Shown piece by piece: positions 6,040 to 61,927 of a DNA stretch of 64,000 nucleotides (within the stretch, counting starts at the first letter, position 1; each line of letters opens with the position of its first letter). Position numbers and translations under genes: made by a program. The stretch is from Lyophyllum atratum (lineage: Eukaryota > Basidiomycota > Agaricomycetes > Agaricales > Lyophyllaceae): positions 1 to 64,000 of the forward strand of contig JACGCN010000015.1 in assembly GCA_014905825.1 (NCBI GenBank). The letters are read 5' to 3'. The notes under the pieces are model-generated. The model made no database searches, was not told the origin of the DNA, and saw only the letters and a program-made list of their open reading frames with translations.

Positions 6040-6416
6040 CTGCACAATTTGGCGAGGTTCTGCCATATGTTCCCCTGCAGGACTTCTGGCATATGTCAAC
6101 CATATTTCTTCTACCTGGCAGTCATGGCACCCTCATGCCATATTGCGCATTATGGTGAGATCCGACCATATTTCTCTCTGCAGGGCTTCTGGCATATATT
6201 CACCATATTGAGTTTTACTGGCAAATATGGTGACCTCAGGCCATATCTTGTATTATGGTGAGATACTTCCATATTTTGATACACAGAGAAATCTGGCGTA
6301 TGTTCACCATATTTTATCTAGCTGGCAAATATGGTGAGCTTCTGCCATACTTCGGTATACGGAGATGTCTGGTGTATTTTCACCATATTTTATCTGGGTA
6401 ACGCATACCATGCAGC
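6040..6416. repeat. Minisatellite of about 103-bp units, left block
   Basis: Degenerate tandem units contain CTGGCAAATATGG, GCCATAT, TTGTATTATGG and TTCACCATATT in fixed order. The same unit forms a better preserved block at 15826-16325 on the other side of the copia element, so the two blocks are one array split by that insertion. Units are rich in CCATAT/ATATGG palindromic pairs. Open frames across it are by-products of the repeat. Confidence 0.75.
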
Positions 6417-15825: not shown

Positions 15826-16325
15826 CTTATACGCTCACTAGCAGATATGGTACCTTCAGGCCATAGCTTGTATTATGGTGGGTTTCTGCCATATTTTGAT
15901 ACACGGAGAATTCTGGTGTATGCTACCATATTTTATCTCGCGGGCAAATATGGTACCTTCACGCCATATCTTGTACTTATTATAGTGGGTTCCTGCCATA
16001 TTTTAGTATACGGAGAATTCTGGTGTATGTTCACCATATCTTTTCTCGCGGGCAAATATGGTACCTTCATGCCATATCTTGTATTATGGTGGGTTTCTGC
16101 CATAATTTAGTACACGGAGAATTCTGGTGTATGTTCACCATATTTTATCTCGCGAGCAAATATGGTACTTTCACACCATATCTTGTATTATGGTGGGTTT
16201 CTGCCATATTTTAGTACACGGACAATTCTGGTGTATGTTCACCATATTTTATCTCGTGAGCAAATATGGTACCTTCAGGCCGTGCTCTCAAAGGTGTATA
16301 TTCACCATTTTTTCTATATTGGGAA
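15826..16325. repeat. Minisatellite of about 103-bp units, right block
   Basis: About 4.5 tandem units, each with GGCAAATATGGTACCTTC, GCCATATCTTGTATTATGG, TGGGTTTCTGCCATA, CACGGAGAATTCTGGTGTA and TTCACCATATTTTATCTCG. Units differ by a few bases, one by a 5-base insertion. It continues the block at 6040-6416. The open frames running along it are repeat-derived, not a gene. Confidence 0.85.
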
Positions 16326-36359: not shown

Positions 36360-37589
36360 GAGGGACCTTTACGACAACGACCCCAGCCTCCAACATAACT
36401 TCCATAATTCAGTCTTCCCTGCCTGCACATTTAATTGTGGGCCCCACACAAGCACACGACGACATATTGACTTCGGAAATTGGCCATCGGGTCAATGCAT
36501 CATCACTGCAATGGGACACTACGATTCCACGAAAGGCGGTCATCTCGTCTTGTAATTGCTGAAGCTGGTTATTGAGTTTCTACCGGATTTGACCATCCTT
36601 CTTCCCTCTGGCATCGTAGAGCACGGGAACATTCCAGTTCAATCATAGGAACGACACCTTTCATTCACTCAGTATGCAGCTGGTGAACTCTTTAGGTGGG
36701 TGGCATATAATTTCCAGACTGCTAAGTCACTTTTGGAGGAGAAGGGAGAGGGTAAAAGATGGGCGGATATTGATGGAAAGAAGGATGAGCACTGATTGGC
36801 AGGGATTGACCTTTTTTCGAAAAGGGGTGAGTTGGAACAAGACAGAGCAAAGACCTTTGGTAGGAAGAGTATCTCTACACTAGTTTCTAAATGTCATTAT
36901 GTAATTTATTTGTCGCTGTACCATTTGTCCTCTCATGTCAGCCTTCAAGTGGCAATGGAAATTATGTCTACTACTTCTCCGTGGGCTCAAGAGGAGAAAC
37001 TGTCAAGAGCTGAGCAGTAGTGGTATATGAGGGTAATGATATTGGAGGGGAATTGTGGAGGTGCCTAAAGGATATACAAAACAACTGCTCTCACATTGTG
37101 GATTCCAAGGCCATGCTTCAGAAGTTACTGAGGGTGGAACTGGCTGACAATGATCACGATGACCATGAAATTGGCGGTAATGCTGTGGATGCAAGTGAGA
37201 GCGAACCAGCATCTGATCGAATGTAGAAATTTCTGACACTCTTGATCCCTGTAACGCTGATGAGCCAAAGCAGAAATGTGACCTCAAAAAGTGCTGCTAT
37301 TTCCTACCTACCAATTTTACCAGCTCTTTGGGCTGCTCTTGATACGAACATTATTTACTACGCGTGGTGCAAGCTTTGCAGAGAGCCTCCACCACTCGAA
37401 TGGCTGGATCACTGCTCCACACATCCATCCTGCCCAATGCAAATATATGGCTTAACTATACACTGGAAATATTGTGAATGTATTCAAGATTTCTTTATGA
37501 TGAATTTGTCCACTATATTTCATATAGTCAAAATAGAAAGAAATTCAAAATAAATACATAATATGACTGCTCAACATAGTTGTATTATA
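36360..37589. other. Unassigned region
   Basis: A plus-strand frame at 37020-37226 (MVYEGNDIGGELWRCLKD, KAMLQKLLRVELAD, acidic tail) is gene-like but unrecognised. No other feature is supported. Confidence 0.25.
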
Positions 37590-47252: not shown

Positions 47253-47347
47253 TATTGCGGGGAGAACGACTTATCGATGGTAAATCATGATGCTGTAACG
47301 CTCACAGCAGCGTTGAGATAGGTCTCTCAATTACATGACGAGCTGCG

Positions 47348-47800
47348 TAGTGTTTAAAAGTCCAGTCACCGTGACTGAAAATGACTGGACTGTAACTGAT
47401 CTGTGACTGGTAATGACCGGACTTCCAGTCCTGTCATCCTGGAATGACTGGTGCACCAGTCCAGTTATTTTTATAATCTGGAATTCTGCGTAACTGAAAA
47501 TAACCGGTCGCGACCGGTTTGTGACCGGTCATTTCTATACATACTATATACCTGATCATAGCACTTCAGGCAGCCCCTAGAGATACCTTCTTAGGGTAGT
47601 TGGTCCCACTGTGAAAGACTAGCCTAACAGGGTCTGGGACCATGGTCTGGTCCCAAGCAATCTGGTCTTCCCACACTTAAGGAGTGGGCTTCCCAGTTTG
47701 GGACAGCCCAAGCTGTCCCAACAGGGTATGGTCTTCCCATCTCAGGTCTTGGGCTGGACCAAAGGTGTGGGCGAGACCAGATATGTCACGTCACGCTTTA
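47348..47800 (+). repeat. Left terminal inverted region of KDZ element
   Basis: The outer 180 bp are dense in ACTGG/CCAGT and ACCGG/CCGGT motifs (TGACTGGACTGTAACTG, GACCGGTTTGTGACCGGTC). The inner part, from GGCAGCCCCTAGAGATACC onward, is a close inverted copy of 59160-59425. Confidence 0.8.
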
Positions 47801-47802
47801 TG

Positions 47803-48030
47803 GTCCTGCCCATGGTGCGCCTGGTCCCGCCCCACGGCGCCTGGTCCTGCCCATGGTGTGAGTGGTCCTGCCCATGGTGTGAGTGGTCCTGCCCATGGTG
47901 TGAGTGGTCCTTCCCATGGTGTGCGTGGTCCTGCCCATGGTGTGCATGGTCCTGCCCACGGTGTGCATGGTCCTGCCCATGGTGTGCGTGGTCCTGCCCA
48001 CGGTGTGAGTGGTCCCGCCCACTTATCCCT
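47803..48030 (+). repeat. Subterminal array of about 21-bp GGTCCTGCCCA units
   Basis: About ten units of TGGTCCTGCCCATGGTGTGAG with small changes (GTGCG, GTGCA, CCACGG). A related array lies at 58545-58835 near the other end. Both strands give repetitive open frames; they are not genes. Confidence 0.9.
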
Positions 48031-48296
48031 TATACCAGCGTGTTTGATAAGATGTTATATAGTCACTAAAATATTAGTACATATTTCAAGTCTACGCAAT
48101 TACCTTTAAGTCCAACTTGTCCTTGAGATTTAAATCGGAAGTCATTCAGACATAAATTGACATAATCATGGATTGCATATAATAACTACAGACTACATAA
48201 GACATAGACAACTACATAAGACATAGACAATACAAAATGAAGTAGAAGTAACAGTGATCATAGTGGGGAACATCGAGAATCAGGTAAATAAATCAA

Positions 48297-50665
48297 CTAT
48301 TGGTCATAATACCCGTTCTCATAATCGTCAAGCGCGTATCCTTCGTCTTCTTCCCGCTCGGGGTAAATGTTGTGGTGCGAAGGGCCGGCTACGGGTTGGC
48401 GCGATGCTGGACGATGCCCATTCTCCGTGGCGCGGCGTGGAATGGGAGCCACTGGACGGGAAGTACGTGGAGTGAGGTTGACTTCATGTATTTTCCGCTT
48501 CTTGGCTGGGCGCTCCGCCATTCCCGGGTCAGGCCTGTTTGTGATTTGAGCTGGCGGGTAGCGCGAAGTGGTTACCGGGGGACGAGACGCTCGTGGACCA
48601 GGAATGGGAGGAGGTGGACGATGAATCCCGACGGGGGCACGTGACGATGGCTCAGACGGATGCTGCCGCGGTACGGCTGGGGTGTGATCCTCATGGGCGC
48701 GTTTGCGAGACTGGAGCTCGTCGCGGCTCGTGGTTGCTCGGGGTTGCTGTTCGCGATGTTCCGCAGGCCCCAAGTGTGCTCGTTGCACCCGTCGAGCATC
48801 AACTCGAGGAACAGGCTGACGAGGCTGAGCATAATCACCCTCAGTTTCGAACTCCAAGTCGGACCCAGTGTCGGATGGCTCTTCGGGAATGGTGACTGGT
48901 GGGCGACGAGCCCCGCTCTTCGATTTCGCAAATGTGTTGAGGAACTTTGTCGAATCCGAGACTTTGAGAAGTACCGTTCGGTCGGTGTCCACGAGGAGCG
49001 GAATGTCTGCCTGGTTTGCGCCCTGACGTTGCTTGTCGGCTAAGGATTATGAGTATAGTTTCTATCCACATAACGACAGGAGAACATACCTTCGGACCAC
49101 GGGATGACCCGAACGACGTCTTGAGAATTGGGCGAGTCCGTACGAGCCTTTACCATTTCTTCTAGAGGCTTTTGCTTGAGTTTCTTGAAGTTGAAGTCTG
49201 GACCGAGCGCAGGGAGATCGGCGTGCCAGCCGACGAGGCACATCTGGGACGTGTATGCGAAGTCACACCAATCCTTCCATCTCATCACCAGGACGCTTGC
49301 TTCTTTGTCCGAGAGTTTAGCACCAATGATACCCCCTGCGAGTTATTTAGTTAGATGTAGCACCATTAGATAGACATCAAAATGACGCACCAATGTCACA
49401 ACGCAGGTATTCGCCGAGATTACGACGAAAGCGATCCCTGGGCGGGCCATCGTCTATCAGTTTTGGGACAAATCGCCCTTTGGCGACTGCCCGTTCCCGA
49501 TCGCGCAGATCCTTGTGCCTAAAGGTAGCATGAGCGAACTTGAGTCACTAGACGGACTGAAAGTACATACTTGAACATTCCTTCGTAGTCCGAAGCCTGC
49601 TGTGTCAGTACGGTCGAATACTCTGCGCGTAACTCCTTGTATTCGTCTGATCCGCCCCAAGCAACACTCGCCGTGGCGCCATGAGCATCCCGCTCAGTGT
49701 CGATGAGCCAGCCAAAGACTTGGAGATTGTATTGGTCCCTGACTTGGCGACTCTGTTGACTACAAATAAGAATATGGCACGACGGGAGTTTCGAAGGGCT
49801 GACCATTTTAATGAACGGGTCGAGGATGCGGCTCGTCAGAGCTGGCAAGTTGCCCTTCTCCCTCTTTTTTTCGACGTAGAGGTTGATACCGTTATCATAC
49901 CAGTCGAGAACCTCCTTTCTGAAGGCGGTCATGTCTACTTGAGGATCGTCCTTACGCTTCTGCCAATCCTCGCTGAGAATTGCGACCCAGTCATCCTTGG
50001 ACACTATAATGTTGATAAGTATATGTTCGGTGATGCGATTAAGAAAGACTTACTGTCGGGATCATGCTTTATGTCTCCGAACTCCCCATACCAGGCCTGA
50101 AACGCATTCCATGCGTTCATCTGGCGAGGTCGTTTGACTGTCTCTCCGACCACCTGTTGGAATAGGCCGACCGGCTTTCCGTACTGCGTCGACAGTGCCT
50201 CGAGCTTGGCGAGGTACTCGCGGTAGGCGGCGACCGCAGAATCGGCCGCTGCCTTCGGTAGTGGGCCTGATGTGTGTGAGGTACTGTCGGAGTCGACCTC
50301 AGGCGACTTCTTCGGGGGCTTGGCCTTTCTTTTTGCCTTTCTTTAAAGCCGTCAAGCGAGGGGGGGAAGTAGGCTGTGCGTTGCCGAGGAAGTCCTGCTC
50401 GTCCTCTGCGTCCTGTTCCTCCATGGACAGACTGACGGCACGTCCTCGTCGGCGGCGACGGTCACGATCAGCCTGTCGAGCAGTAGCGGTAGTCTCGTAA
50501 TCTGATGCGCTGGGATCGCTCTCAACCGGTGTGTTAGGGTGATCTTCCTCGATGTCAACCCCGGCTGCGCCCTCTTCCTTTTCACTTTCGCCTTCCTCGT
50601 CCTCCTCCTCTTCCTCCTCCTCCTCCTCCTCCTCCTCCTCCTCCTCCTCCTCCTCCTCCTCCTCC

Positions 50666-50697
<32 letters not shown>

Positions 50698-51426
50698 GTC
50701 CTCTTCCTTGTCCTCGTCCTCGTCCTTGTCCTCGTTCTGATCCTCCTCGTCGTTCTCATTATTTTCCTCCTCCTCATTCTCCGCTCCTTCGGCATGGTCG
50801 GATGGGATGTCCTCCTGCAGGTCATCAATGGGGTTCGCCCCCTCAGAAGGCACGAGGTCGAGCGGTGATCCCCGGGGCGTTCCAGGCTCGCCAGATTCAG
50901 CACCGAATTGAGCATGGAGCTTCTGCTGCCAGACGCGACCGGACACGAAATGACGATCGTCGTCCTGGTCCTCATTGGCCACTGGCTTGGATGCGTAGGT
51001 ACGCGGGCGCGGGCGCGGGCGCTGACCATGTGGAACCGGTGGTGCAACACCAACTGCTGTTTCAACGGGTGGCGGACTGTCGTCGTGGGAAGGCGAGGTG
51101 GCGGAAGTGGGAGGGGGGTTATCAGGAGGCGGATGCTGGGCATCAGAATCGGCGGAGGAGTTGGTTGTGGGTTTAATGGGCGGGGGAGCGGGCAAAGGAG
51201 TTTCGTTGTTGTTGGGCGGCGAAGCACCTGAATTGGCGGCAGATGACGCGTTGAGAGCGTCGCTCAACCCATTCGTGGACGAGACTGGGGCTGGGTTCGA
51301 CGCAGGGGCCTTCTTCCGTCTATTGGCGGCCCTTGGAGGATTAGGAAGCGCTTCCAATGGGCCCTGCCTATTCGAGCGAGTCTGTCGCGGCGTCTGCTTA
51401 TTGGAGCGAGTCTGTCGCGCCGGCAT
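48297..51426 (-). CDS. KDZ cargo gene 1: acidic, largely disordered protein with possible HMG-like segment
   Basis: Start MPARQTRSNKQTPRQTRSN at 51426, a basic tail, then Pro/Ser/Asn-rich sequence and a long Glu tract encoded by a CTC/CTT repeat at 50590-50760. Beyond a frame change near 50310 (a C5 run, indel or intron) it reads RPRQMNAWNAFQAWYGEFGD, VSKDDWVAILSEDWQKRKDD and MTAFRKEVLDWYDNGINLYV, then WGGSDEYKELRAEYSTVL, DRFRRNLGEYLRCDIG, MRWKDWCDFAYTSQMCLVGW and VVRVIPW. The tail is Arg/Pro-rich with NGYYDQ before the stop at 48297. MNAW...WYG resembles an HMG box loosely. It contains no TET/JBP motif. Probably nuclear and chromatin-associated, by composition only. Confidence 0.65.
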
Positions 51427-51559
51427 AGATGTAGGGTAGGTTGAATGTAACTGTAGAGTGTAGAATTGAGATGTGGGGTAGCAAGAAAGTGAAAGGGGGC
51501 GGGAACGAGGACTGGGACGTACCACGCGGTCGCTTACTACCACTGGCCAACATGATTCC

Positions 51560-52235
51560 CATTATCTCCCTTTTTAGGCGCCTGGCCAGGCCAATGCGAA
51601 CGTCGATGTTCCACCCGAGTCGCGGTTCCTAAATTAGCATAATTGTCGGTTAAGAACAATGGCGTCGAGACATGGCCACTACGAACCTTTTAAATAGAGC
51701 GCAAGTCTCGGCCGTCGAGCAGTTCCCCCAACCTGCTACTGCTAAGCCATCGTCCTCTGATCGCAAGTCATATCGTTCCTATCGTCGGTGAGCTCTAGCA
51801 ATTTAACGCCAAGGGCGGGTACTCACTTGGTCCCCAGTATCCTCAGTCCGCCAAGTCTACCAATTTTTCTGGTAAGTTTCATGAAGTCGGTCAATCAGCA
51901 CGCGTACTTACCCATTCTCATATTCCCCTCCCATTCAGCATCGTGCACTCGACGCCGCCGTTCTGATATGTCCTATTAGCCAGGTACCTGTCAGCTTTCC
52001 CTCATCTTATTCTAATTCACTGACTTACAGTGCTCTATTCCTTCAGTGACAAGTTAATAAATCCTATGTAGTTTTCACCCTAAGTCCACCAGCGTTGCAA
52101 AATGTAACATAGATTGATATACGGTAGCTATTTCTAACGTAGTGTACGGTAATGTAGTCTATTGTAGTCTACTTGAAGGGCTGGTGGTGGTGCGGAGTCA
52201 AGAGGTGAGTGAGTGTTTGGACTTGTCGAGTGACG
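51560..52235. other. Intergenic region between divergent KDZ cargo genes
   Basis: The two cargo genes are transcribed away from here, so it should contain both promoters. Repeated GTAGTCTA/TGTAGTCTAC motifs lie near 52140-52170. No gene is supported. Confidence 0.4.
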
Positions 52236-52463
52236 AGTTGGCCCAGCACGTTTGTTTAGGGTAGACATTTGGCACGTGGTGTTGGCCCAGCGTCCCGAGT
52301 CCCGAGGTTTGGATTTGTGATGCGACAGCTTGGGCCTGCCACGTGTCCAGACCCATCGCGCCTGGGCCTGGCGTCCCGAGGGCCCGAGGTTTGCATTTGT
52401 GGTGCGACACCTTGGGACAGCACGTGCTAAATGTCTACCCTAAACAAACGTGCTGCGCCAACT
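52236..52463. mobile_element. 228-bp MITE with 42-bp inverted ends
   Basis: Ends AGTTGGCCCAGCACGTTTG and, inwards from the right, AGTTGGCGCAGCACGTTTG, both followed by TTTAGGGTAGACATTT and GCACGTG. The interior has a direct repeat built on CGTCCCGAG...GAGGTTTG.ATTTGTG.TGCGACA. No clear target duplication was found. It sits 117 bp upstream of the Spt5-like start codon. Confidence 0.85.
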
Positions 52464-52579
52464 GATGGCGCCTGGCCGGACTTAGAATATTTCGCTCTTG
52501 ACGTGGTACCACTACCATCCCTGCCCGCCGTCCCTATGGCCGTTTAATACACTTAGAATAGACAGTATTTTATAGTAGG

Positions 52580-55158
52580 ATGGACTCTAATGAAGTGAAT
52601 GCCGTCGTCGCTGGGTCTAACGACGGCAAAATGTTGTCAAATGAAGACATGCACGACGATATTGGTGAAGTAAGAAACTTCATGAGCAGTCAATAAAAAT
52701 GTATTCAATGTTACTACAGAAGTCAGTAGACCAACGAACGGGTCAAAAGCGCCCGCGCATCGAGGAGGTATGCGACAAGTCATGCCAGGCCTCAAAATCC
52801 ATACTCACACGGCACGAAGCAGGACGTGAGGCGATTTCTGAGCCTGGAGGCCGAGGTACACGACGAGAGTGAGGAAGACGATGATGATGAGGAGTTAGGT
52901 GCGTACTGTATACAGTGTCCCCGAGACAGACCACTAAGAACGCCCTTTAGATGATTTCTTGGAGGAACAGGAACCCGTAGTTGCCGACAGTCGCGTCTCC
53001 CACCGCCTGCTCTATCGTGAGCATATTCGCGCGTCCGCTGAAGGCGACTGGATGTCGTTTTTGACTCGTGCTCACGAACGGGCGCACGACAACAAGCACG
53101 ACAACAAGCACGATTATGTTGACGACGAAAGTTTGTTGGATGTCCCAAGGCCGCAGTTGTGGAGGGTAGCGGTGAAGGTCAGTTTATTGAAGTCATATGT
53201 TGTACTGGTTACTGACCATTTCCCAGCCGGGCTATGAAGAAACGGCGGCTTTCATCTTGATGGCTAAAATCATCCGAGGTGGGTGTCGCTGGGCGGTAAA
53301 GTCCATCGTTGGCGAAGTTTCTCATCCCGGCTGGATTGTCATCGAGGCTACCACCGTCAGCGACGTCGAATCAGCATGTCAAGAAGTATCCAACGTCTAC
53401 CCACAGCGGATGCACATCGTTGCCCCCGAGGATGCGTCGGTCTGGATAAAGGAGCCGACATTATTCACGCCTCGCAACCAGTCTTGGGTACGGCTTTCAC
53501 GGCACCCGTATCAAGGTGATCTAGCCTACGTTCGGGAGTTCAAACACGGGGGGGGTACATACGGCGCTGATGTCCTGGTCGTCCCTCGGCTCAGACTAGA
53601 GCGCAGGCTGACTCGTCCTGTAAAACGTCCACGAAGTAGTCGTCCGGATCAGGCGCTGTTCGATGAGAAGAAAGTCATAGGGGTCTGGGGAGAGAAGTCG
53701 GTCGAGAGGAGGAATCAAGTTCTGCTGTTCAAGGGTGCAGTCTACTTGGATGGATACCTGTCATTCGTCACGAACGACTTTTATCCAGAGGAAGCCATAC
53801 CGACTTCGGACGAAATCGCTCTCTTTCGAAACGCTCGCTGCATTCCTCGAGATGTCTTTCAAAGAACCTTGGAGATGATGTCTAGGCATCAATTGGTACT
53901 CGGGGACTCGGTTATAGTTGCGAACGGGGAGTCGCAGGGTGTCTTCGACGTAGTCGAAAGTCTGACTGGCAACGAAGCTGTTATTCGTACAGTACCAGAT
54001 AAATTGCAGTTGGCGGTATCGATTGACTCCCTACGAAAGGATTTCCGTGTCGGGGACCAAGTCAAGGTCACCATCGGAACACTCTCAGGTTCAACGGGGT
54101 GGGTGGTAGCTGTGACACCGGAAATGCTGACGTTGTACGATCATAAGGCGAAGAAACATGTCAGTCCTTTCACCTACTTTTGCTTAGTATCCATCTCACG
54201 TCATTTACACAGATGCAAGTCCCGTACAATTGCGTTCAATTCTTCGAATTACCTTTCATAACGCACTCAGGTGAACCTTCGCATCACAACTCCAGACTTG
54301 AGTTTCCGAAGGATCCTCATCGTCATCTCGTCGGGCGGCATGTTCGAGTCATGAGAAACCACCAGCTCAAGGCCTACGAAGCCATCATCAAGTCTACGTT
54401 AGAAGGCAACAATGTCCTTATTGAAGTTCAAGCGACGATGAGACAGGAACGCATCAGCCTCTCGCATCTAACGTTAATGTACGTTTCGTCGACTCGGTAT
54501 AGAAATATGTTGACCGCTACTTAGCAACGACTCCCATTTCACGCCATTGAGCATCGAGGAGATGACCCGCCGGCAATCCATATTATCGGGGATGGTGATA
54601 CCCCAGTCTACCCTTCCTCTTGTGCCATCAACGCCCCTCCCGCCCGGCACCAGTGTGGCATTCAGCCCTGCATGGGATCCCTCCTCTCGAACTCCAAGTG
54701 CAAATTCGTCCTTCCGTATGGTATTCCCATTTGCTTCTCGTTGACTATCTAATCAGCTCTTTTGCACAGCTTACAGCCCTTGGATGGAATCACCCCTTTT
54801 CGCCGGCAAACGAATCAAAGTCCAAATCAACAACACCAAGGCTGTTCTTCGTGACCCCGGTTTCAAAAACGGGGATTACGAGGACAAACGGGGACTGTGG
54901 ATCGGGACTGAAGGCAATCAAGCTAAAGTTCTAATCCATATGGAAAGGCTCTTGGTGCCGGACAAGTATGTACGTCCAATTCGGCCGGAAATCAAGGGTG
55001 AAATGGTTACCGCTCTCGATGGTGTTTGGATGGGTAAGGAGTTCGTGGTCATGGAATTCGGAAAGGACCAATGCGTTGTTCGCGACCGTACAATGAAGAG
55101 AGACTCCAAGACTTACATTCGCCTGGCCACGAGCACCTTAGTAGTCATATGTCCTTGA
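52580..55158 (+). CDS. KDZ cargo gene 2: Spt5-like protein (NGN and KOW domains)
   Basis: Start MDSNEVNAVVAGSNDGKM at 52580. Four short introns with good ends restore QRTGQKRPRIEE, DVRRFLSLEAEVHDESEED, DDFLEEQEPVVA and PQLWRVAVKPGYEETAAF. The acidic N-terminus and the NGN fold (VKPGYEETAAFILMAKII, HPGWIVIEATTVSDVESACQ, EVSNVYPQRMHIV) match Spt5, the RNA polymerase II elongation factor. KOW-like motifs follow: VLGDSVIVANGESQGVFDVV, FRVGDQVKVTIGTLSGSTGW and HLVGRHVRVMRNHQLKAYEA. The C-terminal part has GLWIGTEGNQAKVLI and ends LVVICP at 55158. The Ser/Thr CTD repeats of true Spt5 are not obvious. It is probably a transposon-borne Spt5 paralogue; the role is not known. Confidence 0.75.
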
Positions 55159-55287
55159 GCCTTGTCTACAATACATTGTATATACCAGTTACGTCGTATG
55201 TATACCATTTATAATGAGACACGTTTTACAACTTCCCCCGCCTCACTCTTCGAGTGGGGCTGGCGTGAACGGAGGATAATCCCGGTC

Positions 55288-55413
55288 ATTCGTATATCCG
55301 GAGCAAGTCATTGTTCTCCTTCATCGGAGAAATTGATGTGGCGGCCACGCATTCGTATATCCGGAGCAAGTCATTGTTCTCCTTCATTGGAGAAATTGAT
55401 GTGGCGGCCACGC
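55288..55413. repeat. 63-bp tandem duplication
   Basis: Two near-identical copies of CATTCGTATATCCGGAGCAA followed by GTCATTGTTCTCCTTCAT, GGAGAAATTGATGTGGC and GGCCACG. Lies between the cargo gene and the KDZ transposase. Confidence 0.9.
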
Positions 55414-55596
55414 GGATATGGGAAACAATGGGCAGGCGGGTGGCCATCCGCGTTTGGAACTGCCGAACGCCACTGAGCCGATAGGGGATGGCTGTTGGCC
55501 ATCTCGCGAGCGTGGAGTGGCGGCGCGTCCTATGTCACTATTCTACTGTATCTACCATTCGCAGTCTCGCCATCTCTGTTGCCCTCTCCGCTTGCG

Positions 55597-58483
55597 ATGC
55601 GTCCTAAGCTCACCAAATCAATCAAGAGCGCGGCGTCAAGCCCGCGCACGCCTAAATCATACACACCAGTCCCTGGACCGGGTCGTCCTCACCATCTTAC
55701 GCGTCCCGATGGTATTCGTCCCTTGGTGTACCTCTCTGGTGGAGATACGCTCATCCAGCACCCCAATCTGCCAAGGATACCGGGGCAAATAGGCTTCGCT
55801 GGTGACCGCCCGTTCGACGGCAGAACACGTCGTGCTCCGGTCGCAGATCACCTGGACGATGCAGATCCCTTTCACTTCGAGCCTGATGTCATGTTCGACT
55901 CCACCGTTGCCCCTGGCTTTGATCCCCTGCAGTCACGCCACCGAAGGAAAAGGGCAAATCAGTCGCAGCGATGGCTCACGGAGGTCATTCCTGCCTTGAT
56001 TCCTCCCTATATGGAAGTTCTCAGTAAGACACAGTCTTTGCGGCTGCGTGCCAAATCCGAGTTGCGGTGCACGTGTGGTAGTCCGGGTAGGAAGTTGGAT
56101 ATGGTCGTGCTGCGGTTTTCGAGTGAGTTACCAGTCTTTCCTTGGGATTGGCTTCTGCTAACAGTGTCTCCTAGCTCTCGAATCTCTTAGCGTCCAGATA
56201 TGCGAATGTTCCCCTGCGGCAGTGCAGCTGATGAACCGAGGCCTATTTCCCTGCTCGCCCGTGGCTCCAACTCTGGCTGTGGACCTACTAGTTCTCGACT
56301 TCGTCACCCGACTTTTCGTCCATATGCCACCGAATATCACGGCGTGGTGCCAGACCGTTGAGGAGTTCCTCGGTCCTCAAGGCTATAAGCTCACAACACA
56401 AGTAAGTTTTCTCACTCTTCGTTATCATTCTAATCTCATGCTCGTATCGTACCGCCAGGATTCACTACGGCGGCGGTTCTCCAACGCGTTTCAGTGGTAC
56501 AACACGCTTCAGGATGCCACCGCGAAGTATGTGGATAGTAAATTGTCGCAGGCCCGGCAGGCCGCCACGCGCCTTCACGACGGTGCTCAAGAAGACCGTC
56601 CATCGCTGGAACATGACACCAACGACGGCAGAGACGATATCCCCACTTCCGCCATTCCATCTCCTTCACGTAGCTCCGCCCCGCCAGCCCCATCCTCAAA
56701 TCCAAGAACACCAACTCGACAAGCTACGGTTGAAGACGTCGACGACGAGGAAACCCCCGTTCCGTTACGTACCGCACCTAAGAGGCGACGGCCAGCAGCA
56801 GATCTCGAAGACGAACATCCTGTCGCCGTTCCTTCCCAACCTTTCCCACATCCCACGCCTCGTGAGCGGCCCAGTGATTACTTGCGCGCTCGGTGCCCCC
56901 TTTGTTTTGGTGGCGAGTTCCCCCGATGTGCTGATACAGAGTGAGTGTCTTTCTTGTCGGCCATGACTGTTCATTGACATCCTCGATAGCCCAGGCAGTC
57001 CAGATGCCATAGTTTGCATTGATGCTTGCTTCACCCAGAAACGGAACAAGCAGGCGCGGGACCCGGAGCGCGCTCATCCGCGGACTGTATTCGTGCCCGA
57101 ATCCGATGCAGATCGCATGGCTCAGTACGTCGAGAGGGTTCGCCCGCCGAAGGCACCAAAGCCACCCAAACTGCGGAGACGGCGCTGCAAGAGGCTGGAC
57201 AAACCGAAGCGTGCCTTCGCCGTGAGTGGGACGCCCAAGTAAAAGCCCAAACGAAACCCCTGCCGCGTAAGTCATTTGGAGCCCTAATATTAGATGTAGT
57301 CTCACGACGTTACTGCAGGTCGCTCTAAGAACCAAGGCAAGAATGCAGTCGAGGAGGCCATCCGCTTACGGAAAGCACGTGACATTCTGCAGCAACGCGT
57401 CACCAATCTCGAAGACGAGATTCTAGACCCATCGGCGGACACTGTCGCAATCAGTGGCGTCGAGGCGCAGTTGGCTATTGCGCGCCCAAAGCTGCATGAC
57501 GCCGAACTTAGACTCAAGCACCAGGAGCGTGCTCTTGGGGTCGATGATCGCGCCGAATTGATCCAACTACTTGGCAATTCATTTATTGCTGCCCGTATGA
57601 ACGCGCTTGCACTTAAGGTCCGGCTTCGCGAGCGACTGCGGGCAAGGAAGTTTGAGATGGATCGGGTTGAGCGATCATTTCGCAAACAAGTCAACGGTAC
57701 GTCATCAAGTTGCTTGCTCAGTCTCACAAAATCTAACTACCGTACAGAGCAAAAGATCCATGCTCACACTGAGGCATCGGTTCGGAGACGTGATCCTAGT
57801 GTCCAGCAGTTGGCGCGCGACTACAATAAGCTTTGCGAAACAATGGCATCACTGATCACTGCTAATAAGGCTCCCACTGGCGCCACCTGTCCACCTCGAA
57901 TCGAGATGAAGGGGCTATTTGCGCTCGACGTCGACGACGAGATATGGCAAGATGTTGGGCTTGCTGATGACACGCCTCTTGAGCCACCACTTTGGCTATC
58001 CGACGATGGGGTGCGCAGTGGCATCAAAGCTCGACTGGAGCTTGATCGATGCACGGAAGAGGAAGCGCGGCTGCGGCACGAACGACGCGCTCTTCAGTTT
58101 TGGTTTCAAGAAGAGTGGACGGTCATTACTGCAGCAATTGAGAGTACTGGTATGTTTGCAATTGCTTACATTTCTAGCTTGGCTAACATTTTATTATAGA
58201 CTTCCTACCCCTCAAATATCAATTTGAACAGAGGAAGCAAGATCTCCTTCGTCTTTGCGCGACATGGGAATTGCCGCTGCGGTCTCTTGATGCCGGTCGT
58301 GATGCACTCCGAGATTGGGGTCCGACTCCGGAGGAGCTGCTTCAAGCAAGAGCTGATCAGGTAACGGCCGCAGTAGTGGATGAGGATGATGAAATTGGAG
58401 ATGATGTTATTGATGTTGATGATTACCTAGTAGAGACTCTCGATGCCTTCGATATCGCAGCAGCTTATCGCGATAAGTTGTAA
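55597..58483 (+). pseudogene. KDZ transposase lacking its catalytic core
   Basis: Start MRPKLTKSIKSAASS at 55597. The CxC region reads LRCTCGSPGRKLD, VQICECSPAAVQLMNRGLFP, CSPVAPTLAVDLLVLDFVTR, GPQGYKLTTQ and DSLRRRFSNAFQWYNTLQD after splicing two short introns. Then CPLCFGGEFP and DAIVCIDACFTQKRNKQ contain the first catalytic Asp. Shortly after VRPPKAPKPPK the frame passes into EAGQTEACLRREWDAQVKA and, after an intron, NQGKNAVEEAIRLRKARDIL, which in complete KDZ proteins follow the catalytic domain. The roughly 400-residue stretch with the remaining acidic residues is missing. The helical C-terminus (ERALGVDDRAEL, YRDKL) is intact. Confidence 0.85.
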
Positions 58484-58544
58484 TAGTTATTGTGAAAATA
58501 TATCAACTTAGTCCTGAACCGGGTGATCTAAATTGGGCAAGACC

Positions 58545-58835
58545 ACTTGTTGCTCACCTCCTGCCCTGGTCCAGCCCACTGCCTCCCTGGTCCGGCCCAC
58601 CTCCTCCCTGGTCTTGCCCACCGCATCCCTGGTCCGGCCCACCTCCTCCCTGGTCTTGCCCACCGTCGCCTGGTCTTGCCCACTGCCTCCGCGCTGGTCT
58701 TGCCCACCGCCCCCTGGTCTTGCCCACCGCATCCCTGGTCCGGCCCACATCCTGCCATGGTCTTGCCCACCGCCCCCTGGTCTTGCCCACATTTTCTCTG
58801 GTCTTGCCCACCACCTCCCGTGGTCTTGCCCAAGT
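58545..58835 (+). repeat. Subterminal array of about 20-bp GGTCTTGCCCA units
   Basis: About fourteen units alternate GGTCTTGCCCACCGCCYCC and GGTCCGGCCCACCTCCTCC. Related to the left array at 47803-48030 and in the same orientation, although the outer ends are inverted. Confidence 0.9.
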
Positions 58836-59159
58836 CTATACACATTCTATATATCGGGAATGCTTGTAAACTATTTTTACTTGTACATAACATGCTATCA
58901 ATAACTACAAAGGAAGGAAGGGTGTTGGAAGACTATAAAGATGTCCTTTCCAAACTCTAGAATAGTTTGTTGCCATAATGGCTCTACCAGTTTAACAAAT
59001 AACATGAAAATGTATCTCTAGTTCTGTAACCTGTTTGAAGTTCTTGATCACAGCACCCAGTCCCCTTAGACATCTCTCCAGCATTTTGGCAAGAGAAATT
59101 TCAAAGCGTTATATTGTGACCTAGTGTATCACTAATAATATATGCATGATATATGCTGG

Positions 59160-59843
59160 GCAGGACCACACAGGCTGGGCAGGACCACAAAGCGTGACGT
59201 GACATATCTGGTCTCGCCCACACCTTTGGTCCAGCCCAAGACCTGAGATGGGAAGACCATACCCTGTTGGGATTGGGCTGTCCCAAACTGGGAAGCCCAC
59301 TCCTTAAGTGTGGGAAGACCAGATTGCTTGGGACCAGACCATGGTCCCAGGCCCTGTTAGGCTAGTCTTTCACAGTGGGACCAACTACCCTAAGAAGGTA
59401 TCTCTAGGGGCTGCCTGAAGTGGATCATAGCCTGCTATAGGGGTTAAAAATGACCCTTGGGTCAAATAAATCGGATGAGAACTGAATGTGCTATGGCCAA
59501 AAAAATTTCGGAACACCGAGTTTGAGTGCAGACTGTACTAAGCATCTTAATCAGCTCATATCTCAGTCAGATCTCATTGGATTCTCACGACCCAGGGTTC
59601 ATCCGAAAGGTGGAAGCATACTCTACATTATATGTAACATATCTAACCGGTTATAACCGGCTTAGGACCGGTTTTCGTAAAACTGGTCAAAACCAGTCAT
59701 AGAACTGATTGTGACTGATGGTGACTGGTCACCATCAGTTCAGTTCGGTTTTTTGGAGTTTTAAGCATCACATGTGACCGGTTACGGTCCGGTCTTGCCT
59801 AATTTGGTGAAAAAACCGGACTTGACCTGACTTTAAATCACTA
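59160..59843 (-). repeat. Right terminal inverted region of KDZ element
   Basis: 59160-59425 is an inverted near-identical copy of 47545-47815 (CACGTCACGCTTTRTGGTCC, GGTCTTGGGCTGGACC). 59640-59843 carries CCGGTTATAACCGG, GACTGATGGTGACTGGTC and similar ACTGG/ACCGG motifs, matching the style of the left end. 59430-59640 is not shared. Confidence 0.8.
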
Positions 59844-60535: not shown

Positions 60536-60691
60536 TGATGAAAGTGCTGGTGTGTGCGACCACCTCGCGCACACGTGATCTTGCGTACATACTATATTTG
60601 TTGTTTGCCACGTCTGTCTTCTCTCAAGCGTTCCGACGGGGTACAGAATATACCAGATCGTTCGGCTTGTATTGGACGCGAACTTTCTACA
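60536..60691 (+). repeat. 5' LTR of TR-GAG element
   Basis: TGATGAAAGTGCTGGTGTG to GCGAACTTTCTACA. Contains TACATACTATATTTG as a possible TATA region. Confidence 0.93.
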
Positions 60692-60783: not shown

Positions 60784-61623
60784 ATGGCTATTGACACCGA
60801 GACGTCGTCATCGAGATTCGCCAACCTAAACGAGGCTAATTACTCCGAATGGGTCATTCGCATGGAGGCCGAGCTCATCCGTAAGGGTCTCTGGGATCTG
60901 GTTGTGTTTGAACAGGAGCCCGGGGCAGCAGAGGAGGAGGTCGAAAAGGCACGTGTCGCGTGGCAGAAGAAGCGGACAGCGAAGAAGATGGCGGAAGCTC
61001 GGGCTGAGATCATTCTGCGGGTGGAGGACTCCCAGTTGTCACACATGCGAAGCAGGGACCCGATGGAGATCTGGAGCAGTTTGGCCCGGGTGCACGTTGC
61101 GCGAGGGTTTGCGACGCGGCTTGCGTTGCGGCGGCAGTTTCTGCGCCTGATTAAGGGCGCGGATGAATCGATGGCGACCTGGGTTGGTCGGGTGAAGAAG
61201 TTTTCATTCCGGTTGGAGGACATCGGAGTGGCGGTAACGGACGAGGACCGGATTTTGGCCCTCACGAACGGCTTGGACGACACGTACAATTCTTTTGTCA
61301 TCTCCTTGGACAGTACGCCAGCAAACCAGCTCATGCTTGAGCATGTGGTGGATCGCATGTTGAATGAGGAGGTGCGGCGCGGAAATCGGGATCAGGTGGC
61401 CGAGGAAAAGAAGGCTGAGAGTGCGTATATGACGACGATGAGGACATCGAAGGGCACGCGGCTGGATCGAATTCAGGTTCAGGGGCCAACAGGGCATGTT
61501 GGCGCTGCGGGGAGATTGGGCATATCAAGCTATTTTGCACGAAGGAGCCACCGACGAGGGAGGAGAAACAGAAGGAACAGGCAAATTTGGCTTGTACGGA
61601 CGTCAGGGAACTCAGGGACTTAG
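60784..61623 (+). CDS. Copia-type gag (UBN2-like) of the TR-GAG element
   Basis: Start MAIDTETSSSRFANLNEANY at 60784. Features: YSEWVIRMEAELIRKGLWDL, HMRSRDPMEIWSSLARVHVA, LRRQFLRLIKGADESMATWV, FRLEDIGVAVTDEDRILALT, NGLDDTYNSFVISLD and MLEHVVDRMLNEEVRR. This is the standard copia gag order. The zinc knuckle CWRCGEIGHIKLFC lies one frame off (near 61497), so a single-base shift separates it, and the open frame ends at 61623 without it. Gag normally assembles the cytoplasmic particle that packages element RNA. Here it could package its own RNA for enzymes supplied by another copia element. Confidence 0.88.
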   Translation: MAIDTETSSSRFANLNEANYSEWVIRMEAELIRKGLWDLVVFEQEPGAAEEEVEKARVAWQKKRTAKKMAEARAEIILRVEDSQLSHMRSRDPMEIWSSLARVHVARGFATRLALRRQFLRLIKGADESMATWVGRVKKFSFRLEDIGVAVTDEDRILALTNGLDDTYNSFVISLDSTPANQLMLEHVVDRMLNEEVRRGNRDQVAEEKKAESAYMTTMRTSKGTRLDRIQVQGPTGHVGAAGRLGISSYFARRSHRRGRRNRRNRQIWLVRTSGNSGT

Positions 61624-61774
61624 GGCGCGAATGCGGGGTTGGGGAGGTATATTGATTTGAGGGGGTGCACCGGACGTCAGGGAACTCAGGGACTTAGGGC
61701 GCGAATGCGGGGTTGGGGAGGTATATTGATTTGAGGGGGTGCACAATCATGTGCGCAAGGTGGTCGAGGGGGTG

Positions 61775-61927
61775 TGATGAAAGTGCTGGTGTGTGCGACC
61801 ACCTCGCGCACACGTGATCTCGCGTACATACTATATTTGTTGTTTGCCACGTCTGTCTTCTCTCAAGCGTTCCGACGGGGTACAGAAACCAGATCGTTCG
61901 GCTTGTATTGGACGCGAACTTTCTACA
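61775..61927 (+). repeat. 3' LTR of TR-GAG element
   Basis: Same ends as the 5' LTR; it lacks three bases (TAT) after GTACAGAA and has C for T in GATCTCGCG. Confidence 0.93.

Follow-up and report, generated by a model that had tools for sequence, protein, structure and literature searches.

Genes of the TET/JBP type are carried as cargo by KDZ, EnSpm/CACTA and other fungal transposons and move between these superfamilies, according to the parts of PMC12730594 used here, in which an 8-bp target-site duplication (TSD) is also given for Zisupton and for one Dileera family, and a 7-bp TSD with CA..TG ends and no terminal inverted repeat (TIR) for Kyakuja. In the excerpts used of other papers, specialised NusG paralogues are described in bacteria (RfaH, LoaP, UpxY and the plasmid-borne ActX; PMC7819879), Spt5 paralogues in plants (SPT5L/KTF1; PMC3111484) and in Paramecium (Spt5m/Spt5v; PMC8934623), and VANC of the Arabidopsis VANDAL transposons as an anti-silencing factor associated with DNA methylation loss, its targets often being tandem repeats (PMC5735166). 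The locus here presented lies in bases 1-64000 of contig C57, hereafter the window, in the Lyophyllum atratum assembly (64.8 Mb, 151 contigs). The interval 47562-59422 of this window (11,861 bp, without assigned strand) is a KDZ-superfamily cut-and-paste transposon, the first member of what is here named family A, and holds a Spt5 paralogue as cargo beside a broken transposase gene.

That 47562-59422 is a mobile unit is shown by its ends, its target duplications and its unoccupied targets. When the assembly was searched with the left TIR (47562-47832, + strand, starting CACTTCAGGCAGCC), eight matches were obtained that pair into four elements, namely the window copy, C92:291345-308057 (16,713 bp), C66:771937-784403 (12,467 bp) and C75:950619-956875 (6,257 bp). 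Copy alignment and self-comparison of the ends place the right TIR at 59158-59422 (- strand), the two inverted ends sharing 258 identities over 271 columns (~270 bp, 95%). The first and last 30 bases are identical among all four copies (CACTTCAGGCAGCCCC...), and the termini read CA..TG. GATCATAG flanks the window element as a perfect 8-bp duplication (47554-47561 and 59423-59430, both + strand), and each sister copy exhibits a perfect one of its own (GTCTGGAT, GGAAATCG and CAAAGAAA), the chance expectation being 4^-8 for each of the four. Independent repeat fragments mimicking one element are ruled out by the pairing of the eight TIR matches into four elements with matching TSDs.

Unoccupied targets, a search for which had been proposed in the original prediction for this locus, were found for all four copies, since matches to the flanks joined with a single copy of the duplication run across the junction; such matches are copies of the target sequence and do not imply the same locus. 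They lie at C75:939945-940509 for the C75 copy (100%), at C75:284977-285536 for the C66 copy (99%) and at C69:272828-273299 for the C92 copy (98%), while for the window element 22 copies of a dispersed repeat span the junction at 84-95% (40 of 65 candidates being scored). Arrays of 21-bp units with the common core TGGTCNNGCCCA, at 47801-48021 and 58550-58832 (both + strand), are putative transposase binding sites. The window contains 30 instances of the core, of which 29 lie in terminal or subterminal parts of the element, whereas 0.21 would be expected per window, for a motif picked post hoc, once the repeats had been seen.

The borders differ from those initially proposed, which enclosed 12.5 kb between 47348 and 59843 and took the imperfect 8-bp repeats GAGCTGCG/GAGCCGTG as flanking duplications. 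These limits arose because the transposon split one copy of an older TIR-bearing repeat of ~630 bp, its insertion target, whose left and right parts (47348-47561 and 59431-59843, both + strand) were delimited from joined-flank matches and inverted similarity, and to which GAGCTGCG/GAGCCGTG belong as an old imperfect duplication. Matches of the joined flanks begin at window 47342-47350; the query stopped at 59710, and the right end is therefore placed at 59843 from inverted similarity between the two ends of the repeat, weak yet above chance (score 76, against a mean of 32 and a maximum of 55 in 200 single-base shuffles). A single transposon ending at 47348 and 59843, in favour of which this weak similarity and the imperfect repeat could be adduced, is next to impossible and was rejected, considering that (i) alignments with the three sister copies break off at 47562 and 59422, give or take a few bases, (ii) the TSDs lie at these inner ends, and (iii) the outer repeat is present without insert at 22 places. 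The long inverted ends anticipated for the element do exist, at 47562-47832/59158-59422, the outer stretches being only weakly alike; and the concern that the terminal regions might stem from a smaller repeat holds in part, the outer ends being halves of one such repeat, not the inner ones, which define the element.

The transposase gene of the window copy (55597-58483, + strand) is broken, an N-terminal part with CxC1/CxC2 and a C-terminal part being left without the catalytic core. Relative to C92, C66 and C75, a 688-bp deletion with its junction at 57167-57171 (no strand), unique to this copy among the four, carried away the KDZ core, and PF18758 is missing from the window copy for this reason. 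Pfam profiles nonetheless detect CxC1 (1.1e-8) and CxC2 (3e-7) there, in agreement with the KDZ transposase relic recognized originally. For C92, the copy in which the reading frame was followed through, the transposase comprises 1,071 amino acids over eight exons, with matches to KDZ (PF18758; 202.5 bits, 8.8e-60), CxC1 (2.5e-8) and CxC2 (9.7e-7); PF18758 also matches the C66 and C75 copies. Regarding other differences, C92 holds two extra inserts, of 520 bp in intron 5 of the Spt5-like gene and of ~3.6 kb in an intergenic stretch, C66 lacks ~105 bp of the transposase gene, and C75 is an internal-deletion derivative in which window position 50275 is joined to 56575 and the Spt5-like gene is lost. 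The linkage of this cargo to KDZ ends is therefore found in three of the four copies. Family A shares with Zisupton-like KDZ transposons the KDZ catalytic domain, the CxC1/CxC2 cluster, TIRs and the 8-bp TSD; with Kyakuja it has CA..TG ends in common, differing in its 8-bp TSD and ~270-bp TIRs. From described KDZ transposons it departs in its cargo, a Spt5 paralogue and an acidic orphan gene, without any TET/JBP-like match inside.

The Spt5-like gene (52580-55158, + strand) is read in eight exons (52580-52669, 52720-52767, 52823-52898, 52951-53177, 53227-54159, 54213-54478, 54525-54715 and 54770-55158) separated by seven GT..AG introns of 46-55 bp, and encodes an intact, stop-free protein of 739 amino acids with NGN and KOW domains. 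No disruption of the frame or of splice sites is seen in any of the three family-A copies with the gene (window, C66 and C92), by which a pseudogene is ruled out. In Pfam, NGN is matched above the cut-off (5e-10) and KOW2 slightly below it (1.3e-6), KOW models lying above the cut-off in the relatives P0005 and P0009. Such domain matches sustain the early recognition of an NGN/KOW gene, next to one for an acidic protein, between the ends. The top relative of solved structure is Spt5 (1.5e-29), and the AlphaFold2 model of P0001, a protein 94% identical to that of the window, matches Spt5 chains in RNA polymerase II elongation complexes (E 1.3e-27). This model shows a mean predicted local distance difference test score (pLDDT) of 61, mostly 70-90 in the NGN-KOW core, and agrees with Spt5 in domains only, since global TM-scores are ~0.2 and the root-mean-square deviation is ~30. 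The L. atratum protein FPV67DRAFT_1676929 is 94% identical to the window protein.

Differences are observed in the C-terminal tail. The window protein has one repeat unit (residue 594, SPAWDPSSRTP), while host Spt5 on C13 (C13:582300-585300) has four units of the kind TPAWNASSRTPNPYA. One unit is also displayed by nine of the ten cargo-type relatives P0001-P0010 (degenerate in P0002 and P0009), the partial P0010 having none; among ordinary Spt5s, five hits were found in P0011. The NGN stretch GxIxxEA, which we take to be the part facing Spt4, is common to host and cargo proteins.

A PF03439 scan of the assembly detected 22 places, two of host type and 20 diverged. Counts within the assembly are given as lower bounds. 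Host Spt5 appears twice, on C13 and C78, at 97% identity, a pair which suggests that both haplotypes are included in the assembly; for this reason the Spt5-like places are not all independent loci. Ten of the 20 diverged places are inside elements, either of family A (three) or of two others, A2 (three) and B (four), described below, and a further one, E, is a probable element member. In a tree of 24 rows (D_C82, A2_C119 and A_C66 being left out), the cargo proteins form one group with 100/100 support, apart from host Spt5, for a program that warned of long branches meeting. This separate grouping, together with the presence of host-type Spt5 at C13 and C78, rules out that the window gene is the host Spt5 itself.

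Selection was evaluated on exon 5 (~300 codons) by simple Nei-Gojobori counting, for 13 chosen pairs of 15 sequences, a set that, like the tree, omits C_C122, A2_C65, B_C67, B_C63, A_C24 and the second host Spt5. The ratio of replacement to silent change (dN/dS) is 0.25 for B against E (dS 0.94), 0.12 and 0.17 within the group of places named C (dS 1.5 and 1.6), and 0.28 for B_C60 against B_C119 (dS 0.07). Exon 5 of A2_C72 and that of A2_C119 are identical, and dS is saturated for A against B and for A against host. Purifying selection is thereby shown to act between the Spt5-like families.

A2 occurs on C72, C119 and C65, its ends on C72 lying at 106335 and ~127207, and the 8-bp duplications GAGCCCTC (C72) and GAACTTCG (C119) are fitted with the same ends in both copies checked. 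A CxC4 cluster (5.5e-48) is detected, and a TET/JBP-like gene is present in all three copies; the family is named KDZ-like on account of CxC4 and the 8-bp duplication, since PF18758 has no match in A2 copies. A relative on C130 combines CxC4 and a TET/JBP-like gene with no NGN match. The window element and A2 have in common one segment of 94.5% identity (window 52345-55240, + strand; C72:113976-116865), which consists of the Spt5-like gene with 235 bp upstream and 82 bp downstream, identities amounting to 96.3% in exons, 94.7% in introns, 91.4% upstream and 82% downstream. With simple repeats masked, no other DNA match between the two elements was found save a 47-bp inverted piece at the block edge, and neither A2 nor B yields a match to the C92 transposase. 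DNA comparison thus shows that the Spt5-like gene has moved between elements with different transposases. The 47-bp pair itself, at 52236-52282/52417-52463 where the block begins on the left, is a possible trace of the point of exchange.

Family B is a CACTA-type element of 40.5 kb (C60:97753-138213, ends CACTGCGGGCAT..ATGCCCGCAGTG, TAA/TAA), with 426-bp TIRs at 92%, a TAA duplication (checked in one of four copies) and an unoccupied site on C89 (98%). The copies on C63 and C67 are near-identical to that on C60, the one on C119 is diverged, and borders are base-exact for C60 only. All four carry the Spt5-like and TET/JBP-like genes together with a CACTA-type transposase, for which DUF4218 is matched below the cut-off (4.6e-4). 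The TET/JBP-like label of the A2 and B cargo rests on a sub-threshold Pfam match and conserved residues: the Tet_JBP domain is found in A2 at 4.9e-5, below the cut-off, and gave no match in B, while the proteins of both families share 36% identity with H.D and a later H and R invariant, as in the H.D...H...R motif that we assume for TET/JBP-like proteins. A PDB profile search with these proteins produced chance matches only, and their structure model reached a mean pLDDT of 29, too low to be of use. Inside 47562-59422, no TET/JBP-like gene was found with one family B TET/JBP-like protein as query, in agreement with its reported absence from the element. The contrast with TET/JBP carriers that this absence had implied stands for family A but not for the two other families, where both genes ride together. 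The sole match of this kind in the window is a degenerate frame with three stops at 36367-36843 (+ strand), outside the element.

Cargo-type relatives were also found in Tricholomella, Tephrocybe, Termitomyces and Sphagnurus, two other matches, P0011 and P0015, being ordinary Spt5s; the restriction to few genera is provisional, because the protein searches scored 7,990 and 7,988 candidates, those sharing most words. In P0009, from Tephrocybe rancida, a Spt5-like part is followed by a KDZ part in the order seen in the window, the latter being 46% identical to the C92 transposase over 393 columns, and in P0004, from Tricholomella constricta, it is followed by a CACTA-type transposase (28%, 2e-17). 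Both are probably adjoining genes fused by annotation.

The presence of related copies on different kinds of element within one genome suggests that the elements use the Spt5-like gene to stay switched on. According to the sections of two Schizosaccharomyces pombe studies used here, heterochromatin can be assembled as a consequence of RNA polymerase II pausing (PMC6075038) and is kept in check by Spt5, by way of the C-terminal domain of this protein (PMC10659198), and therefore a Spt5 made by a transposon could keep the polymerase moving and prevent silencing. Like Spt5, the cargo protein would use its NGN and KOW domains to bind host Spt4 and RNA polymerase II, and it would help the polymerase to stay on the element's own genes under silencing, so that transposase would still be made. 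With a single C-terminal repeat unit, it would escape part of the control that the host exerts on Spt5. Such a mode would be akin to that of bacterial specialised NusG paralogues (RfaH, ActX), and the end served, escape from silencing, would be that of transposon-borne TET/JBP or of plant VANC. The co-occurrence of TET/JBP-like genes in A2 and B favours this anti-silencing reading, and family A, where no such gene is found, indicates that the Spt5-like gene can stand alone. That a transposon-borne elongation factor keeps the elements transcribed is rather probable; the idea raised in the original prediction, of a cargo protecting or tuning expression of the element in heterochromatin, is likewise an inference.

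Several observations weigh against it. Nine diverged places are not located in any element (C24, degraded; four of C; two of D; two of F), E (C67:643942) has only a CACTA-type transposase 8 kb off, and the assignment of A2 lacks the KDZ domain. Of 109 KDZ-domain matches in the genome, an NGN match lies within 12 kb solely for those at C66 and C92, hence the Spt5-like gene is dispensable for KDZ elements in general. Frames are also damaged, the Spt5-like one of A2 on C72 by a frameshift near its C-terminus and the TET/JBP-like ones of B on C63 and C67. Close pairs are less telling regarding selection, as dN/dS is 0.43-0.51 for A against A2 (20-22 changes), 0.63 for the D pair (12 changes) and 0.16 for A_WIN against A_C66 (6 changes), and A_WIN against A_C92 displays two replacement and zero silent changes. 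The D gene could be fixed in the host. The one-unit tail is not peculiar to the cargo proteins, because the outgroup P0015 also shows only one. Finally, truncation of the Spt5 repeat domain enhances RNA-interference-independent heterochromatin in S. pombe, as stated in the part of PMC10659198 used here, and therefore a cargo protein with one unit could work in the opposite sense, or as a decoy. Regarding D itself, the copy at C64:452793-454004 is 98.8% identical to that on C82, which may be the other haplotype; it adjoins a response-regulator gene, and no inverted ends were detected in 9 kb.

As a decoy, the protein would compete with host Spt5 for Spt4 or polymerase, and, with its short repeat, would keep silencing or chromatin factors from being recruited to transposon transcripts as these emerge. 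Retention of NGN including GxIxxEA, along with one C-terminal unit against four in the host, would fit such a role; the same S. pombe result, in which a shorter repeat array promotes heterochromatin, and the retained long KOW region, beyond the apparent need of a decoy, make it unlikely. The gene might instead be a captured copy of a host gene, useless to the transposon and carried by chance, as the C75 copy without cargo, the two NGN neighbours among the KDZ-domain matches and the nine of 20 diverged places without a placed element would allow. Mere carriage is nonetheless hard to reconcile with purifying selection between families, with one cargo group across several genera, in some of which the gene adjoins KDZ and CACTA-type transposases, or with the recent passage of the entire gene between two elements whose transposases differ, and is regarded as distinctly doubtful. 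A part in the transposition complex, with DNA or RNA binding by KOW instead of a role in transcription, is highly improbable, since the fact that a KDZ transposase follows the gene, on the same strand, in two genera is offset by the sharing of the gene among elements with differing transposases and ends and by its absence from most KDZ-domain loci of the genome.

The other gene of the window element, for an acidic orphan protein, occupies 48297-51426 (- strand) in a hand-made model of five exons (50054-51426, 49571-50003, 49391-49518, 49090-49335 and ~48297-49039). Both readings of it are incomplete, as the frame of the window copy, a broken one, stops in exon 1 at 375 amino acids and that of C92 at 622. 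No Pfam match above the cut-off was obtained, and residues 405-622 of the C92 reading found one relative, in the same genome. Elsewhere in the window, 113-bp direct repeats at 60536-60648 and 61775-61887 (99% identical, 1,239 bp apart) enclose a frame that is gag-like by eye and a 74-bp perfect tandem duplication (61597-61744), and are perhaps, with their content, a small insertion of long-terminal-repeat type. Tandem arrays of 76-104-bp units with CCATATTT motifs, at 6063-6395 and 15840-16281, are perhaps subterminal repeats of other transposons.

Coming back to the anti-silencing reading in its broadest form, it may tentatively be proposed that in Lyophyllaceae a Spt5 paralogue would act as a mobile anti-silencing module passed among KDZ, CxC4/KDZ-like and giant CACTA-type elements, sometimes along with a TET/JBP-like gene, the latter clearing DNA marks and the former driving the polymerase through the element, as a eukaryotic counterpart of plasmid-borne RfaH-like factors. 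In the open-licence PMC literature searched by Spt5 terms, the best-ranked titles and abstracts contained no report of a Spt5 gene on a transposon, and a term search of the main text of PMC12730594 gave no mention of Spt5, KOW, NGN or elongation. A Spt5 paralogue family living on transposons and exchanged among them makes it possible to test directly whether silencing is evaded by transposons during elongation, and whether TET/JBP erasers of DNA marks pair with elongation factors; family-B elements, with both genes, near-identical copies and an unoccupied site, make such a test practical.

Regarding known systems, the likeness to TET/JBP-carrying fungal transposons resides in a chromatin-related cargo that moves between superfamilies, this cargo being there a methylcytosine oxidase and here an RNA polymerase II elongation factor. 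As far as the excerpts of the respective papers go, specialised NusG paralogues resemble the present family in being duplicated NusG/Spt5 members tied to foreign or mobile DNA, whereas the protein here is a Spt5 of eukaryotic type that has several KOW domains, rides on cut-and-paste transposons and is not known to have a cis recruitment site. VANC, likened here by description and not by sequence, is also a transposon-encoded factor countering silencing, and tandem arrays occur here too, but its action consists in causing loss of DNA methylation. SPT5L/KTF1 and Spt5m/Spt5v, as portrayed in the same kind of excerpts, likewise represent a second Spt5 with a non-housekeeping role; they are host genes, whereas the Spt5 paralogue here described is transposon cargo in many copies.

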